Shown here piece by piece: positions 13,615-26,246 of a DNA stretch of 39,164 nt. The notes beneath the pieces were generated by a model. It was not told where the DNA came from and ran no database searches. It was given only the letters and a program-made list of their open reading frames with translations. Positions within the stretch are counted from its first letter, which is position 1. Each line of letters begins with the position of its first letter. The position numbers were made by a program, and so were the translations under genes. The stretch is from positions 1-39,164 of the IMG/VR virus record IMGVR_UViG_3300038701_000855; one strand, written 5' to 3'. Source of the stretch: a virus.

Positions 13615-15678
13615 TTAAACAGTAAATGAAATCTGATTTGTATTAGCATTAAGAAGTTGGTCATTCTCTATATCCAACTTTTGCGCCTCTTCAATTGTCT
13701 TAGTTGTGTCCGCTCTTGTCTTATCAGAATCAACAGCCAATTTAGCAATTTCGCTTTGTATCTTTTGAACTTCCGCTTGCTTCTTAATCAAGTCTTGTTG
13801 CAATGATTCAAGGTTTAACGCTTCAACTTGTTGCGCTAACTCTGCTTGTCTTAGTTGTTGCGCTTGTTGCTCGGGCGTTAATTGCGGGTCAAGCTGCTGT
13901 CTTACACGCTCTTTTGTTGTTTCTTTTATCGGCATATCATCAATCAATGCTGGATAAATGTTTTGCCCTGTCATCAATAAGTTTTGCGCTATTCCCAACA
14001 TAAGTGTTAAATTCTCTCGCTTCTGTACTGGAGTTGTTGGCACTTCTTGCACATCAACATCATATTCAGCAAATAAAGCGTTATCATTCACCGCTTCCAT
14101 TGCAGCAACGCCATTCTCACCAATAACACGAACCAACACACTAGGATTATTCTCAAAGATAACTCGCATATACGTCAACATTAAACGTGCAGATTCTTTT
14201 TGATATAACGTAATGCTATCAAAGTATGTAGCAAGCGTGGAAACAACCTGTTCTATTCTTTGCGCCTCTAATAATGCAGACACTTGTTTATTTTCTGAAC
14301 TTCCTAAAAACTCTGGGTTAACACCAGTAACTTCAAACATACCCGCTTTTGCAGCAGCTAAAACATTCTCATAACCACTTGGCAACGCACTTTGCGCTTT
14401 TGGTTGTATCTTGCCACCAGACAATGCGCCATCATTAACACGGATAGCAGCATCAGTTGAAGCCCATTGTTGCTCAAACCTCTTAGGGTCATTAACAGCG
14501 TTAATCTCATACATAACACCACCTTTAGAATTGTTGGCAATTGTGTATAATATCTCTGTTAATGCTTTATTTGCATAGCGTGACGGCTCTCTTAACTGGT
14601 CAACCATTCCATGCCACACACCTCTTGTTTCATCATAGTCGCCAGTCTTAAACTTGATTGTGAAGCCGTTTTGGTCTTTAGATTTAAACGATTGAAATAC
14701 TTTCTTACCAGATATAATAGCCGTATAATAAACTTGACGCTTATGCTTTACTTCCTCTGCTTCAATTCCGTATTCATCAAACAACGCATGTAACAAATTT
14801 CTTGTCTTAGTCGTCACAACTAGTTCTTCTGATGCAGGGTCAAATGAAAACAAATCTTCTAAAACATCATCGTCCTCATTTTCCATATCTATTTCATCAC
14901 GCAACAATTCAAATGCTTCTGCTATCTCTTGCCTAACAAGCGGGTCTATATCTTCATATAATGGATTCTCAATGCGATAATATGTTTCATACTCCCACCA
15001 TTGATAATAGAATACTTGAACCAAATCTTCATCAACTTCGTTTTCGGCGTACAATCTATCTCTTGTGCTTGTTGTAGACAACGGACTTTCAACAGCCTCA
15101 AAATCTTCTTCTTCTGCACTAAACAAATCAGCGGCATCTTCACGATTCATAACTTTACGGCGATAAACCCAACGGCTATCAAGTAAATTAGCAGCTCTAG
15201 CCTGCGGGTCATAACCAAACTCGTCAAACTTCAAAGAACACGCAGCAACTTCACCAAATGGATTTTTAATATAAGACACACTCTGGTCAACCGCCCCAAT
15301 ACCCGTGATAAGCATCTCTTTATCTTGGCGTGATTCCACTTGCTCAACATTTGCATTTGCTCGTATGTAATCTGAAAATGAATTAGTGCTAGTTGAATAT
15401 TCTTTTTGTAATTGTGCTTCTGGGATTCTAGCTTGATAGTCGGGCTTTCTTCTTAGCTTAATCATAAAGCCTGTAATAGAGTTTATAAAAGGCTTAATGC
15501 GATTAAACACAACAATCTTTCTTTGTTTACCTGCTGATACCCCAACACTATAAGCCATCTCATCACCGCTATAAAACTGGTGGTTAAGCTCTCCTATTTG
15601 ATATTGCAAGTCAAGCCCCGCTTCCGAAATGCTATGATGCTCTTTAAACTGCTTTAATAGGTCTGATTTATTTAACAT
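13615..15678 (-). CDS. Portal protein (P22-like)
   Basis: 687 residues from ATG 15678, which shares its A with the terminase stop (TAATG); an upstream TTG inside the terminase gene is less likely. The N-terminal region YSVGVSAGKQRKIVVFNRIKPFINSITG with VDQSVSYIKNPFGE is P22-type portal. The C-terminal 100 residues form a long Gln-rich coiled coil (QQAQQLRQAELAQQVEALNL), the barrel-like end. It forms the dodecameric ring for DNA entry and tail joining. TAATG coupling to terL suggests matched translation. Confidence 0.83.
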   Translation of the reverse strand: MLNKSDLLKQFKEHHSISEAGLDLQYQIGELNHQFYSGDEMAYSVGVSAGKQRKIVVFNRIKPFINSITGFMIKLRRKPDYQARIPEAQLQKEYSTSTNSFSDYIRANANVEQVESRQDKEMLITGIGAVDQSVSYIKNPFGEVAACSLKFDEFGYDPQARAANLLDSRWVYRRKVMNREDAADLFSAEEEDFEAVESPLSTTSTRDRLYAENEVDEDLVQVFYYQWWEYETYYRIENPLYEDIDPLVRQEIAEAFELLRDEIDMENEDDDVLEDLFSFDPASEELVVTTKTRNLLHALFDEYGIEAEEVKHKRQVYYTAIISGKKVFQSFKSKDQNGFTIKFKTGDYDETRGVWHGMVDQLREPSRYANKALTEILYTIANNSKGGVMYEINAVNDPKRFEQQWASTDAAIRVNDGALSGGKIQPKAQSALPSGYENVLAAAKAGMFEVTGVNPEFLGSSENKQVSALLEAQRIEQVVSTLATYFDSITLYQKESARLMLTYMRVIFENNPSVLVRVIGENGVAAMEAVNDNALFAEYDVDVQEVPTTPVQKRENLTLMLGIAQNLLMTGQNIYPALIDDMPIKETTKERVRQQLDPQLTPEQQAQQLRQAELAQQVEALNLESLQQDLIKKQAEVQKIQSEIAKLAVDSDKTRADTTKTIEEAQKLDIENDQLLNANTNQISFTV

Positions 15679-18113
15679 TACCAACTCATAAAATCATCAT
15701 TTGAATAGCTACTTTGTTTCGCTACTGTTTCACCGCCCGCTAAATACTCCACTTGCTCTTGTGGAAAATACGCCTCAACATCATAAATACGCGTCCACGC
15801 ATCAATCATGTCGTCATTTTTACCAACAGGGAAAAGCATCAATTCATCTTCTATAAATTCACTTGACAAATCATGCACTTCACCTTTGTAGTTATTATAT
15901 AGGATTTTATCAGCAATGTAAACACGGCTATTATCCCAATCAGGGATGGCTCTTCTTATCCTATCCTCTTTGCTTAATCTACCTTTTAACTCCTCTAATC
16001 CAAAGCGATAGTTAATTGCCTCTTGCGCTTTCTGTATGTAATACTTATCCGTCATCATTCCGTATTGCTCAACTCCAACTCTCGGAGGCTTACCGCCTTT
16101 GAAATTCCACTTCTTATGCAGCTTAATAAGCGCATTAACTCTTTCAGTAGGGTTTAGCTTGTCACGCACTAAATCAAGAATATAATAGTTTTGGTCTGGT
16201 GCTAGCCCCACAACAACCATTGCCGTGTAGTCTGCGTTCTCTTTCTTTGTGTTTGCTGGGTCGTAGAATATCCATATATTCATTTCTCGGCAACTAAAGC
16301 TCTCATGGTTTGGATTAAAGAATTGTATTCTATCCTTGCTAAACTCACCATTGCCAACTGGTGCAGGCTCTTGCATGTACTGTCCGTAGAAAACATATTT
16401 CTCTTTAGAACTTCCCTCGTCACGCTGCTTAACTAAGTCCTTAAAGTTTTCTTTGTACTCCCAATAAGATTTATCTTCGCCTGTTTCTTCATCCTTAATA
16501 ATGGCAGGGATTTTAATATGCTTTACTGGCAAGTTTAATCCACCATTACGAATAAAGCCCGTTGGGTCATTCTCATGCAGTCTTTGCATAATCAAGAGAA
16601 TAGGAGTTGCAGGGTTCGCTTTACGTGATTTAATCGTATTAACTAGAATGTCGTTTATTCTATTTCTATCTGCTGTTGACTCTGCCATTTCTGGGCTAAG
16701 GGGGTCATCGATAATTATACAATTATGTGCGAGTATTCCGTCAACAAAGAAGTTATTGTTTCCCTCAACTTGTATGTCATAGACTTTTGTCGGCTCTCTA
16801 CTAACAACTTCATATCTGGAAATTTGTGTCGCTTTGATTTGTGTATTCTTACATGACAACTCGAACACATTGTTGCAAGATTGCTCGGACTGTTGTTGTG
16901 TTTGTTCTCGTCTATATGATGCACAACCAAACGAACCTCGCTCTCGCACGCTAAACACTGCCCATCCCTTAATTTTATTAAAGGCTTCAACTTCTGAAAT
17001 AGCACTCGATAATCTTTGTGTATATTCTTGTAATTTGAATTGCCCTCTCCTCGCATATTCCTTGAGTGCGCTAAGTCTGCGCATGAGCGGGAACAATGCT
17101 GCGTTAAATAACTTATTGGCATAAACCCACTCGAACAAATAGGACAGCTTTTTTCTGATAAAGTTTTTAATCTTCCCGATTCTTTTGCATCCAAGTTGCT
17201 GCACTCCCTTGAACAGAATATTATCGTCTGATTTCTCTCTATTGATTTCCTCACATCGCTGCGGGCTCTTTTCTTTACCTTTGAACACCTCTTGCATTGA
17301 ATCCAAATGCTTCCCTTGAAGCTGTTGAAGCTTTCCATAGATTGAGGATATTTCTTCGTAGGATTCTCCATTGAAGAACCTGTGGCAAGGCGTGCAGGTG
17401 ATTTCTTTATCACCTGCGGTGAATCTAATAATCTCATGCTTGATACTCTCTTGAACAGCCACAACCCTTTTAGGCTCGACTGTATTAGTTAGATGATTAT
17501 AAGATAATACTATATCACCTTTTTTAATTTCATCAATAACTTTCGTACCCTTAACCATGTTGACTTTTGAGCCTGCTACAAAACAACCTTGCCAGCCATC
17601 ATTCATATGCCCTGCACGAAAGCCAGTCACCTGCCCACGCATTGACGTTGCATATACACCGCCTGCATTCCTTTCCGTGCCATCCTCGTCAAATATAACA
17701 TTCCAACGCTTCTTTGATTTACTATCAGGTCTTATTTTAAGATTCCACAACTCTTGATACTCGTCACTTTCAACAATATCTTTCGCACCTAACGAGTTTT
17801 GTTCAGCTAACTGGTCTGAATATGATAAATGCAAGAACCTGCAACGTGGATTAATAGCAAGTGAACGAGCAATCCAATTAACTACTGCCATTTGAGTTTT
17901 AGAGCTTCCAGGCGAAACGTTAATAATAACAACATGCCCGTCATACACTCCCCGCTCAATCTCAAGCAATGTATCTGCAATAAGGCGGTGATGCCAGTTT
18001 GTTATAAACTTCATCCCTTCACGATGCTTAAAGAAATAACGAGTAAAAAACAACGGGTCTTCTTCACACGCTGCTTTTATTATCTGCCGTCTAATTTCTT
18101 CTTTTGTTGTCAT
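15678..18113 (-). CDS. terL: Terminase large subunit with in-frame intein
   Basis: 811-residue precursor. N-extein residues 1-176 contain the Walker A motif NVSPGSSKT (about 65-73). Residues 177-464 are an intein. The C-extein begins CIIIDDP (465-471), the Walker B motif, and ends with the nuclease region (YDPANTKK near 600 and KNDDMIDAW near 775). The spliced product would be 523 residues, normal for TerL. It cuts and pumps DNA into the head with the small subunit and portal. ATG 18113 overlaps the upstream stop (ATGA). The ATPase site is split by the intein, so activity must depend on splicing (inference). Confidence 0.9.
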   Translation of the reverse strand: MTTKEEIRRQIIKAACEEDPLFFTRYFFKHREGMKFITNWHHRLIADTLLEIERGVYDGHVVIINVSPGSSKTQMAVVNWIARSLAINPRCRFLHLSYSDQLAEQNSLGAKDIVESDEYQELWNLKIRPDSKSKKRWNVIFDEDGTERNAGGVYATSMRGQVTGFRAGHMNDGWQGCFVAGSKVNMVKGTKVIDEIKKGDIVLSYNHLTNTVEPKRVVAVQESIKHEIIRFTAGDKEITCTPCHRFFNGESYEEISSIYGKLQQLQGKHLDSMQEVFKGKEKSPQRCEEINREKSDDNILFKGVQQLGCKRIGKIKNFIRKKLSYLFEWVYANKLFNAALFPLMRRLSALKEYARRGQFKLQEYTQRLSSAISEVEAFNKIKGWAVFSVRERGSFGCASYRREQTQQQSEQSCNNVFELSCKNTQIKATQISRYEVVSREPTKVYDIQVEGNNNFFVDGILAHNCIIIDDPLSPEMAESTADRNRINDILVNTIKSRKANPATPILLIMQRLHENDPTGFIRNGGLNLPVKHIKIPAIIKDEETGEDKSYWEYKENFKDLVKQRDEGSSKEKYVFYGQYMQEPAPVGNGEFSKDRIQFFNPNHESFSCREMNIWIFYDPANTKKENADYTAMVVVGLAPDQNYYILDLVRDKLNPTERVNALIKLHKKWNFKGGKPPRVGVEQYGMMTDKYYIQKAQEAINYRFGLEELKGRLSKEDRIRRAIPDWDNSRVYIADKILYNNYKGEVHDLSSEFIEDELMLFPVGKNDDMIDAWTRIYDVEAYFPQEQVEYLAGGETVAKQSSYSNDDFMSW
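16715..17371 (-). CDS. HNH endonuclease nested out of frame inside the terL intein
   Basis: Reads the same strand as terL but one base downstream in frame. From ATG 17371 it has 218 residues; ATG 17437 (AAGAGAG upstream) is an alternative start. It has zinc-ribbon pairs (CKRCSK with FCSRECS; CPICSSGF with HCSRSC) and a C-terminal HNH module: LRDGQCLACE, VVHHIDENKHNNSPSNLATMC, SSCHVRIHKS. This is a complete, well-formed HNH homing-type enzyme, not a random shadow. Its TAA lies 5 nt past the intein's last Asn codon, so its last 30 codons overlap intein blocks F and G. Likely role: cutting intein-less terL alleles so the element spreads (inference). Confidence 0.8.
   Translation of the reverse strand: MENPTKKYPQSMESFNSFKGSIWIQCKRCSKVKKRARSDVRKSIERNQTIIFCSRECSNLDAKESGRLKTLSEKSCPICSSGFMPISYLTQHCSRSCADLAHSRNMRGEGNSNYKNIHKDYRVLFQKLKPLIKLRDGQCLACESEVRLVVHHIDENKHNNSPSNLATMCSSCHVRIHKSKRHKFPDMKLLVESRQKSMTYKLRETITSLLTEYSHIIV
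16722..17585 (-). mobile_element. Intein (Hint domain) in TerL, 288 aa
   Basis: Block A: Cys1 in CFVAGSKV (codon 17585-17583) with two further strands (GTKVIDEIKKGDIVLSYN). Block B: DKEITCTPCHRFF with the TxxH motif. Block F: VYDIQVEGNNNFFVDG. Block G: ILAHN ending in His-Asn, followed by Cys+1. All splicing residues are present, so it should be active. Between blocks B and F the terL frame has about 170 residues with no LAGLIDADG or HNH motif; that DNA instead encodes an HNH enzyme in the +1 frame. The insertion point is the conserved Walker B site, a known preferred terminase intein site. Confidence 0.9.
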
Positions 18114-18310
18114 GTTATGTTTTGCTTTTCTTTATTATGCTCATTCAAGATGTTTTGCAACTTAACTAACAAAGCCCCATGTTCTTTATCATCCTTAACT
18201 CTCTGTGATAAGCGAACACAATTTGCCATGTTCTTCGCAACAACTGCCAACGATTCACTCAACTTATCAAGCTCTTTAGTCGCTAGATTATATTCTTTTG
18301 AAAACTCCAT
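18110..18310 (-). CDS. Small helical protein upstream of terL, 66 aa
   Basis: Start set at ATG 18310 (MEFSKEYNLATKELDKL), 11 nt after AAGGA. A longer frame upstream begins with TTG and has an unlikely Cys/Pro-rich start. The protein is an amphipathic helix pair (KLSESLAVVAKNMANCVRLS). The stop overlaps the terL start by 4 nt. It lies between terS and terL; family unknown. Confidence 0.6.
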   Translation of the reverse strand: MEFSKEYNLATKELDKLSESLAVVAKNMANCVRLSQRVKDDKEHGALLVKLQNILNEHNKEKQNIT

Positions 18311-24838: not shown

Positions 24839-25578
24839 AACTCTAACTCCTGCTTTAATTCATCAAAAGATTTTGTGTATATTTCTTTCTTAGCAGGGCA
24901 TTTCTTTTCTATATCTTGCCAAGCAAAAGAGTTTCTAAACGTGGCAACATAATCTTTCTTAGGTTTTGCACCAGCAGCCCAATTCTTAAAGTATTCCAAT
25001 AAAGCAACTTCATCTATGTTTTTGTAATAACCATCTTTGCGTTTATTATCTAACCAAGATTGGATGTGAGATATAGACAAATCACCAAGAGAAACCCCCT
25101 CTTTATTTTCTTTATTACTTCCTTTATTTATTCCTTTATTATTATTCTTGTTTATAGTGGAGCCAGTCTGGTGCTTTGATGGTGCTTCATTGGAGCTTTC
25201 ATTGGAGCTTTCATTGGAGCTTTCGTAGTTTTTAGGGTTCTGATACTTCCCGTAATTACTGATAGTAATCAACATCCCTCTGGTGCTTACGTTGGTTGTT
25301 ATCATAGATGCTTTCTTAAGGGCTTTCATTGCCTTCTTCATCTGGTCTTTCGTATAACTCTCTTTTCTATACCCTACATACCACGCCAAACCATCCCTTA
25401 TATCATCGAGCCGGACGAATAACTGCCCCCTTTCAATCGTGATTCCTGACGACTTTCCTTCTGTGTGATTAGCATTCATTAACAACCAATCCCATACTTC
25501 ACGTACATAAGGAGGTTGTGACATTATCTGGCTTTCCATAATGCAGCGAGCTTTAATGTAATATCCTTTATATATCAT
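24829..25578 (-). CDS. Replication initiation/helicase-loader-like protein
   Basis: 249 residues from ATG 25578, 7 nt after AAGGGG. The N-terminal half is a winged helix of the phage O/DnaD type (VREVWDWLLMNANH, GITIERGQLFVRLDDIRDGL). A low-complexity linker follows (SSNE three times, then Asn/Lys-rich). The C-terminal domain has LLEYFKNWAAGAKPKKDYVATFRNSFAW, typical of DnaT/DnaD-like replication proteins. It lies directly upstream of the helicase and overlaps the HNH gene by 11 nt. Confidence 0.72.
   Translation of the reverse strand: MIYKGYYIKARCIMESQIMSQPPYVREVWDWLLMNANHTEGKSSGITIERGQLFVRLDDIRDGLAWYVGYRKESYTKDQMKKAMKALKKASMITTNVSTRGMLITISNYGKYQNPKNYESSNESSNESSNEAPSKHQTGSTINKNNNKGINKGSNKENKEGVSLGDLSISHIQSWLDNKRKDGYYKNIDEVALLEYFKNWAAGAKPKKDYVATFRNSFAWQDIEKKCPAKKEIYTKSFDELKQELELWK
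25189..25224 (-). repeat. Three tandem 12-bp repeats
   Basis: ATTGGAGCTTTC on the plus strand, three perfect copies, encoding Glu-Ser-Ser-Asn units in the linker of the replication initiator. Likely a slippage-prone, length-variable linker. Confidence 0.8.
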
Positions 25579-26134
25579 ACTTTGCCCCTTTCTTGCTATT
25601 ACAAGTAGTGCATAATGTTTGCAGATTACTTTCTTTGTTGTCACCACCCTTTAAGACTGGTATTATGTGGTCGATAGATAAAGATTCACTAATTCCACAC
25701 GACTTACACGCATAACCATCTCTTTGAAATATCTTTTCTCTTAGCTTTTTATTTGTTATTTTTGCGCTAGCTACCTTGCGACGTCGTTTATAAGTCTTTT
25801 CATTTTCATAATACTCTTTGCAAAATATAACTTTTCTTTTAAAGGAGAATTGCTCGTTTACATCTATAAGGTCGTCCAATTTATAATATTCTTTACCATC
25901 TATAAAAGATAACAAGAAGTTAATATCTTCTTTCGGGATATATACCCCGTAAGATGCAAAGGGGTCACTCCACCTTGCAAATAAAACCTTCTCATAACAC
26001 ATTAATGGCTCAATTGATTTACTGGCATTATACTCCACAAGAGAGTCAGTTAATACTCTATTAGGCACATCATAAGAGCCGGGTCTAACTATATTAAAAT
26101 TATCTAAGAAATCTAAAACATCTGTAATGTTCAT
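25568..26134 (-). CDS. HNH endonuclease, free-standing
   Basis: 188 residues from ATG 26134, preceded by a strong GGAGGG; the longer upstream reading has no ribosome site. The C-terminal module is canonical: REKIFQRDGYACKSCGI, SLSIDHIIPVLKGGDNKESNLQTLC, TTCNSKKGAK. The N-terminal 110 residues look like an AP2/NUMOD-like or otherwise unknown targeting domain (DFLDNFNIVRPGSYDVPN). A homing role is likely; it stands at the head of the replication operon. Confidence 0.82.
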   Translation of the reverse strand: MNITDVLDFLDNFNIVRPGSYDVPNRVLTDSLVEYNASKSIEPLMCYEKVLFARWSDPFASYGVYIPKEDINFLLSFIDGKEYYKLDDLIDVNEQFSFKRKVIFCKEYYENEKTYKRRRKVASAKITNKKLREKIFQRDGYACKSCGISESLSIDHIIPVLKGGDNKESNLQTLCTTCNSKKGAKYDI

Positions 26135-26246
26135 TTGATACCCTCCATTCAGGTTATTGCGTTTCACTTTTAAAAATCGGCGGGTGGAGTGAATGGAAAC
26201 CACCCTTTTCATCGTTCGGAGCTACCGAAGACTAGCCTATTGTTAT

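Follow-up and report, generated by a model that had tools for sequence, protein, structure and literature searches.

A predicted homing endonuclease gene overprinted in the +1 frame of a terminase intein recurs across phages

An HNH endonuclease inserted out of frame in its host gene has been described in ShiLan, where the authors found neither an intein nor an intron (PMC11855218). True inteins follow a homing cycle in which the endonuclease decays (PMC8966425, PMC6801210), and the inteins of the mycobacteriophage terminase large subunit (TerL) are located at the P-loop, Walker B and C-motif (PMC5050341). Here we analyze a viral DNA of 39,164 nucleotides (nt), positions 1 to 39,164 of IMG/VR record IMGVR_UViG_3300038701_000855 (hereafter, the window). 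Its terL gene carries an apparent class-1 intein, and the +1 frame of the same DNA encodes an HNH endonuclease. We consider it likely that this is a homing intein and that its endonuclease gene is overprinted on the intein and translated separately.

The terL gene (15678..18113, minus strand, as are all features described below) encodes an 811-amino-acid (aa) precursor that includes the intein, and its exteins match PHROG 38 (E=1.4e-89) and PHROG 4758 (2.2e-57). The intein itself (288 aa, TerL residues 177-464; 16722..17585) lies in the ATPase half of the protein, directly before the Walker-B strand and one residue ahead of it, with junctions Gln-Gly/Cys1 at the N end and His-Asn/Cys+1-Ile-Ile-Ile-Asp-Asp at the C end. 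Pfam Intein_splicing matches TerL residues 192-464 above cut-off (1.5e-11). Block A (CFVAGSKVN, 17559..17585), block B (GDKEITCTPCHRFF, with the TxxH motif, 17373..17414) and blocks F and G (VYDIQVEGNNNFFVDG-ILAHN, 16722..16784) contain Cys1, Thr65 and His68, and Asn288, respectively, each invariant in an alignment of 48 sequences, and the residues of a class-1 intein are all present in the window (C1, T65xxH68, H287-N288 and C+1). A structural model built on this alignment places residues 1-88 and ~250-288 in a Hint domain with a predicted local distance difference test score (pLDDT) of ~95 and matches Hint structures including BIL2, gp41-1 and NpuDnaB (E 6e-8 to 4e-4), while the linker between blocks B and F (16785..17372) is modeled at a low confidence of 45-65. 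Based on residues and fold, we predict that the TerL insert is a self-splicing class-1 intein. The first-pass annotation, made from the window sequence, had likewise seen a TerL intein with intact splicing blocks, and both the class-1 residues and the Pfam match bear this out. Two other candidates were rejected: a split intein or fractured gene, since terL is a single 811-codon open reading frame, and a Group I intron with an HNH gene, since there is no Rfam intron match in 16300-18200 and the host frame is open throughout.

The +1 frame is open over 16715..17488, and about 255 codons are open in it and in the terL frame alike, where more than 200 had been claimed. Its stop, TAA at 16717-16715, is provided by the extein codons Cys-Ile-Ile and lies 5-7 nt beyond the intein end; a stop beyond the intein is also found in 38 of 60 relatives. 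From the most plausible start, ATG 17371, the gene (16715..17371) encodes 218 aa, with ATG 17437 and TTG 17464 as alternatives. Profiles identify the product as an HNH endonuclease (PHROG 1271, E=1.8e-18; Pfam HNH above cut-off), and the HNH profile matches by sequence the HNH domains of DotN, IscB, EcoKMcrA and the GVE2 phage HNH. The catalytic treble-clef region (CLAC - VHHID - SPSNL - CSSC, 16856..16957) contains a ββα-metal motif of HH...N...H plus Cys pairs, with HHI, N, N, C, C, H and H invariant in 15 sequences, and the N-terminal zinc-ribbon cysteines (CKRC ... CSREC ... CPIC, 17135..17296) are invariant in the alignment. The zinc-binding and catalytic residues (cysteines, HH...N...H) are retained across relatives with only 26-40% identity to the window. 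A model of the HNH frame has a mean pLDDT of 87.1. The first-pass annotation was right about the enzyme and the position of its stop; it had also called this a full zinc-ribbon HNH, and that part did not stand, as the alignment shows the window protein to lack a middle zinc-ribbon present in many relatives, making it a shorter member and not the fullest form. Past Ser-Met-Thr-Ser, which is the image of Val-Tyr-Asp-Ile, the tail of the HNH frame coincides with intein blocks F and G. Since the HNH of 15 of 60 relatives ends at about this point, 47-56 nt short of where the intein ends, the C-terminal tail is probably dispensable.

This arrangement is not peculiar to the window. Searches blind to frame were run by tblastn on cultured phages and by profile on viral contigs and a single genome for each species of bacteria or archaea, and the resulting loci, which are a sample, were classified frame-agnostically. 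A zinc-ribbon HNH adjoins intein blocks in at least 66 non-identical loci, of which 66/66 have it in +1 and none in the host frame. All 66 occupy the TerL Walker-B site, with the Walker-B Asp-Asp following the intein. Clustering of 63 sequences gave at least 52 clusters at 80% identity and at least 44 at 60%. Among cultured phages, tblastn with the HNH frame found Synechococcus phage S-EIV1 and Gordonia phage Clown, both within an annotated terminase; in each, a TerL intein occupies the same site as in the window and has the HNH in +1, and local G+C is 46-66%. Genome records with the arrangement include Paraburkholderia adhaesiva and metagenome-assembled genomes of Planctomycetaceae, Bacteroidetes and Polaromonas. 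In-frame HNH inteins numbered four among the matches listed, and their HNHs are only distantly related. The GenBank records of S-EIV1 and Clown annotate the terminase only and no HNH, in keeping with the suspicion in the first-pass annotation of a broad, poorly annotated class. Gene finders report the host gene alone, which is why this class of HNH enzymes has gone unnoticed. As a side observation, two TerL precursors (L232 and L250) carry an additional upstream intein at the P-loop, that of L250 with LAGLIDADG matches.

Substitutions indicate which of the two readings is maintained. The wobble position of the HNH codons is position 1 of the host codons, and substitutions in the overlap concentrate there. 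In the middle region of the pair L004/L011, 38, 21 and 92 substitutions fall at HNH positions 1, 2 and 3, with an identity of 0.81 for the HNH vs 0.48 for the host frame, and the pattern is repeated in other pairs. Therefore, the HNH protein is what the linker DNA preserves. In the intein N block, most pairs change more at host position 3. The alignments display dual selection on one stretch of DNA. The terL-frame linker drifts at host codon position 1, and the comparisons support freedom from stops as its only visible constraint. Its stretch YRREQTQQQSEQSC (16916-16875) is the frame-shifted image of HHIDENKHNNSPSN in the HNH frame, as had been proposed; Gln231, the most conserved residue of the linker, is the frame-shifted counterpart of a position invariant in the HNH; and the YRR-x-Q stretches attributed to other Hint proteins fit as the image of HHID-x-N. 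These observations agree with the earlier view of the linker as a by-product of the HNH code. The accompanying claim of two separate proteins on shared DNA is supported by the phase common to at least 66 loci, the substitutions at the HNH wobble and the separate folds of the two models.

A host stop arises when an HNH codon ends in T and the next codon starts with AA, AG or GA. Over the 169 overlapped codons of the window HNH, 14.3 terL-frame stops are expected from synonymous-codon shuffling and 17.5 from a G+C null, and none is seen; 0/4000 shuffles were stop-free. The open terL frame across the HNH is not due to chance. In 60 overlapping HNHs, T occupies 0/2960 of the wobbles at risk, while it ends 26% of other codons (0/63 vs 42/105 for the window HNH). 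Free-standing HNH relatives (n=97) have T at 1139/3650 of such wobbles, and none is free of these stops. Dynamic programming showed that synonymous HNH codons can avoid every host stop in 61/61 proteins in +1, whereas 44/61 would retain at least one in +2. Synonymous avoidability of stops is therefore a plausible reason for the +1 phase; within the zinc-ribbon family, common descent alone is enough to explain its constancy.

With these data in mind, we propose the following mechanism. The terL frame would encode an ordinary class-1 Hint domain with a loose linker at the usual position between blocks B and F, and the intein would excise itself from the precursor to leave an active terminase. 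The +1 frame of the B-F stretch would encode a complete zinc-ribbon HNH, produced as its own protein through internal initiation in the terL message. This enzyme would cut intein-free terL around the Walker-B codons, and during repair the intein would be copied over in full. The linker peptide would be the terL-frame reading of the HNH code, and the folding of the two Hint halves around it would explain why it is tolerated. The host frame would stay open because its stops begin with a T that falls on the third base of an HNH codon, where a synonymous choice without T is always available; for the same reason, the +1 phase would cost nothing.

Relatives with an empty site or a damaged HNH bear on the predicted mobility. 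The flanks of L001 are ~89% identical to the window, and this relative has no intein and an exact empty junction that already codes Cys+1. Occupied and empty alleles of one site are thus present in close relatives, as in a homing element. The TGTATAA that holds the HNH stop also stands in the empty site, and no HNH was found in the L001 record, which is partial. Between L040 and L211, identity is far higher for the HNH (48%) and the intein (52%) than for the exteins (24%), and some other pairs are similar. In L023, the zinc-ribbon part of the HNH has been lost, and in L250 there is a deletion and an in-frame stop within the HNH frame; in both, the host frame is open and the splicing blocks are intact. 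The intein therefore does not need the HNH, and this decay matches what would be expected from the homing cycle (PMC8966425). A broken HNH frame beside a retained linker is the kind of case that the first-pass annotation had named as contrary to its proposal. However, L250 and the deletion in L023 are two loci against more than 60 intact ones, and they do not speak against the proposal because the homing cycle predicts such decay.

As for expression, Shine-Dalgarno (SD)-like sites precede 22/105 ATGs of the HNH frame vs 2/73 of those in the remaining two frames (p=0.0003, class-wide), and several relatives have a strong SD with an ATG (AAGGAGG-ATG in L010, GGAGG-ATG in L046). Internal initiation within the terL message is our best guess from these signals, and the HNH would then have a start of its own and be produced without terminase. 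Several results weigh against our interpretation. The candidate starts in the window (ATG 17371 and 17437) have a weak SD at best, start mapping across the class gave no single conserved HNH start codon, and a search for promoter signals found none above chance. Further, a whole-fold search of the PDB with the HNH model returned nothing below E=0.06 and no confident match, and intein blocks F and G confound the reading of the HNH C-terminal tail. Separately, the window has an extended -10 promoter-like site upstream of the HNH starts (TTGATG-16-TATAGT, 17504-17536); such sites are no commoner than in shuffles.

The HNH could instead be made as a TerL-N/intein-N/HNH fusion through a +1 ribosomal shift in the N-half of the intein. 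This would suit a +1 frame that is open well upstream of the first plausible ATG (17488 vs 17371) and HNH starts that vary among loci. We nevertheless regard it as improbable, given the enrichment of SD-like signals at HNH-frame ATGs and the strong examples in L010 and L046; no conserved shift site was seen, though there was no in-depth search for one. Somewhat less probable again is that the HNH is a packaging partner of the terminase and not a homing enzyme, expressed inside terL as both work together. Some phages are known to have an HNH protein as a partner of the terminase (Kala et al. 2014, as cited in PMC12613952), and every main-family case among the matches listed is located in terL. 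Against this, the records of intein-free relatives, which are incomplete, show no HNH, a decayed HNH stands beside an intact TerL in L023 and L250, and similar arrangements occur in portal, PolIII-alpha and methylase genes. The weak start in the window might suggest a dead, unexpressed relic kept because it is harmless, but this is very unlikely in view of purifying selection on the HNH frame of the overlap in several lineages, the invariant active-site residues and the finding of just two visibly decayed copies. Finally, even though known inteins with an HNH have it in the host frame (Dalgaard et al. 1997, as cited in PMC8966425), an ordinary in-frame intein split by sequencing or assembly frameshifts can be dismissed on the shuffle test, the absence of host stops over ~255 codons open in both frames, and the phase shared without frame breaks by at least 66 loci, which come from numerous independent assemblies and include two finished phage genomes.

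Similar layouts are seen beyond the zinc-ribbon family. An intein in PolIII-alpha at a GYGFNKSHA-type site (L261:3315-3785; L278) has a different HNH in +1, with T at 0/50 of the host-frame risk wobbles; a search with this HNH matched only itself. At a second TerL site, in the nuclease half, two inteins (L008:6649-7338 and L288:2968-3615) have an HNH_3 gene in +2 overlapping the linker, and the two enzymes are 45% identical. A portal-gene intein (L019:7570-8082; L280) also has a linker that overlaps an HNH_3 gene in +2. The idea of +1 as the sole phase is consequently narrowed to the zinc-ribbon family. Counting the TerL Walker-B family in +1 (more than 50 clusters), there are cases in PolIII-alpha (+1), at the second TerL site (+2) and in a portal gene (+2). 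We lean slightly towards overprinted homing inteins being a general design that has arisen several times, with an out-of-frame endonuclease gene in the B-F loop. If so, the design would free expression of the endonuclease from the host protein. PHROG 30251 and PHROG 35162 align over the intein linker of L288; therefore, some families in protein databases may be nothing but frame-shifted images of nucleases hidden in the same DNA. Insertions resembling ShiLan in C5-methylase genes were found in L052, L267, L282 and L285, and ShiLan-like elements also occur outside mycobacteriophages. Elsewhere in the window, a second, apparently free-standing HNH endonuclease (25568-26212; PHROG 16726, E=6e-18) lies near a DnaB-like helicase gene.

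Searches for intein endonucleases usually look in the frame of the intein itself, and here many linkers that appear meaningless hold a hidden enzyme. The class is also a clear example from nature of two overlapping genes that are selected separately, and a simple rule accounts for a phase that costs nothing. Fractured genes with split inteins, reportedly described by Dassa and colleagues in 2009, are said to be joined by trans-splicing, with a free-standing gene for the endonuclease located between the two halves. There too, the endonuclease is a separate protein tied to an intein; in contrast, the host frame of the window is unbroken, and the overlap is one of coding alone. Ordinary homing inteins (LAGLIDADG, or HNH in Dalgaard et al. 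1997, as cited in PMC8966425) likewise have their endonuclease between blocks B and F. However, they are one polypeptide in one frame, whereas the window has two predicted proteins in two frames, as do the listed loci (+1 in 66/66). The TerL inteins of mycobacteriophages share the host gene and the proximity to ATPase motifs, and the accessible text of PMC5050341 describes no out-of-frame HNH among them. We found no paper describing an out-of-frame endonuclease in a true intein, with the proviso that the preprint bioRxiv 2025.01.02.630785 may describe one. The title of Gosselin, Arsenault and Gogarten 2025, 'Actinobacteriophage Inteins: ... Non-Canonical Architecture', together with a citing sentence, suggests overlapping frames in inteins of actinophages, and the work could include Clown. 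If the preprint describes the same layout, the window arrangement would be a further member and less new.

The closest precedent remains ShiLan, together with Applejack gp54/gp55 (PMC12613952). Like the window, it has an out-of-frame zinc-finger HNH in an insertion that adds no host stop, and like the class as a whole, it has a patchy distribution. Translation of ShiLan-like hidden HNHs now becomes testable in the cultured phages Clown and S-EIV1. ShiLan differs in having, according to its authors, no splicing blocks or predicted splicing, in its use of the third frame, and in its host gene, a non-essential methylase. In the window, by contrast, an intein is present by its blocks and Pfam Intein_splicing, the HNH lies in +1, and the host gene is terL.
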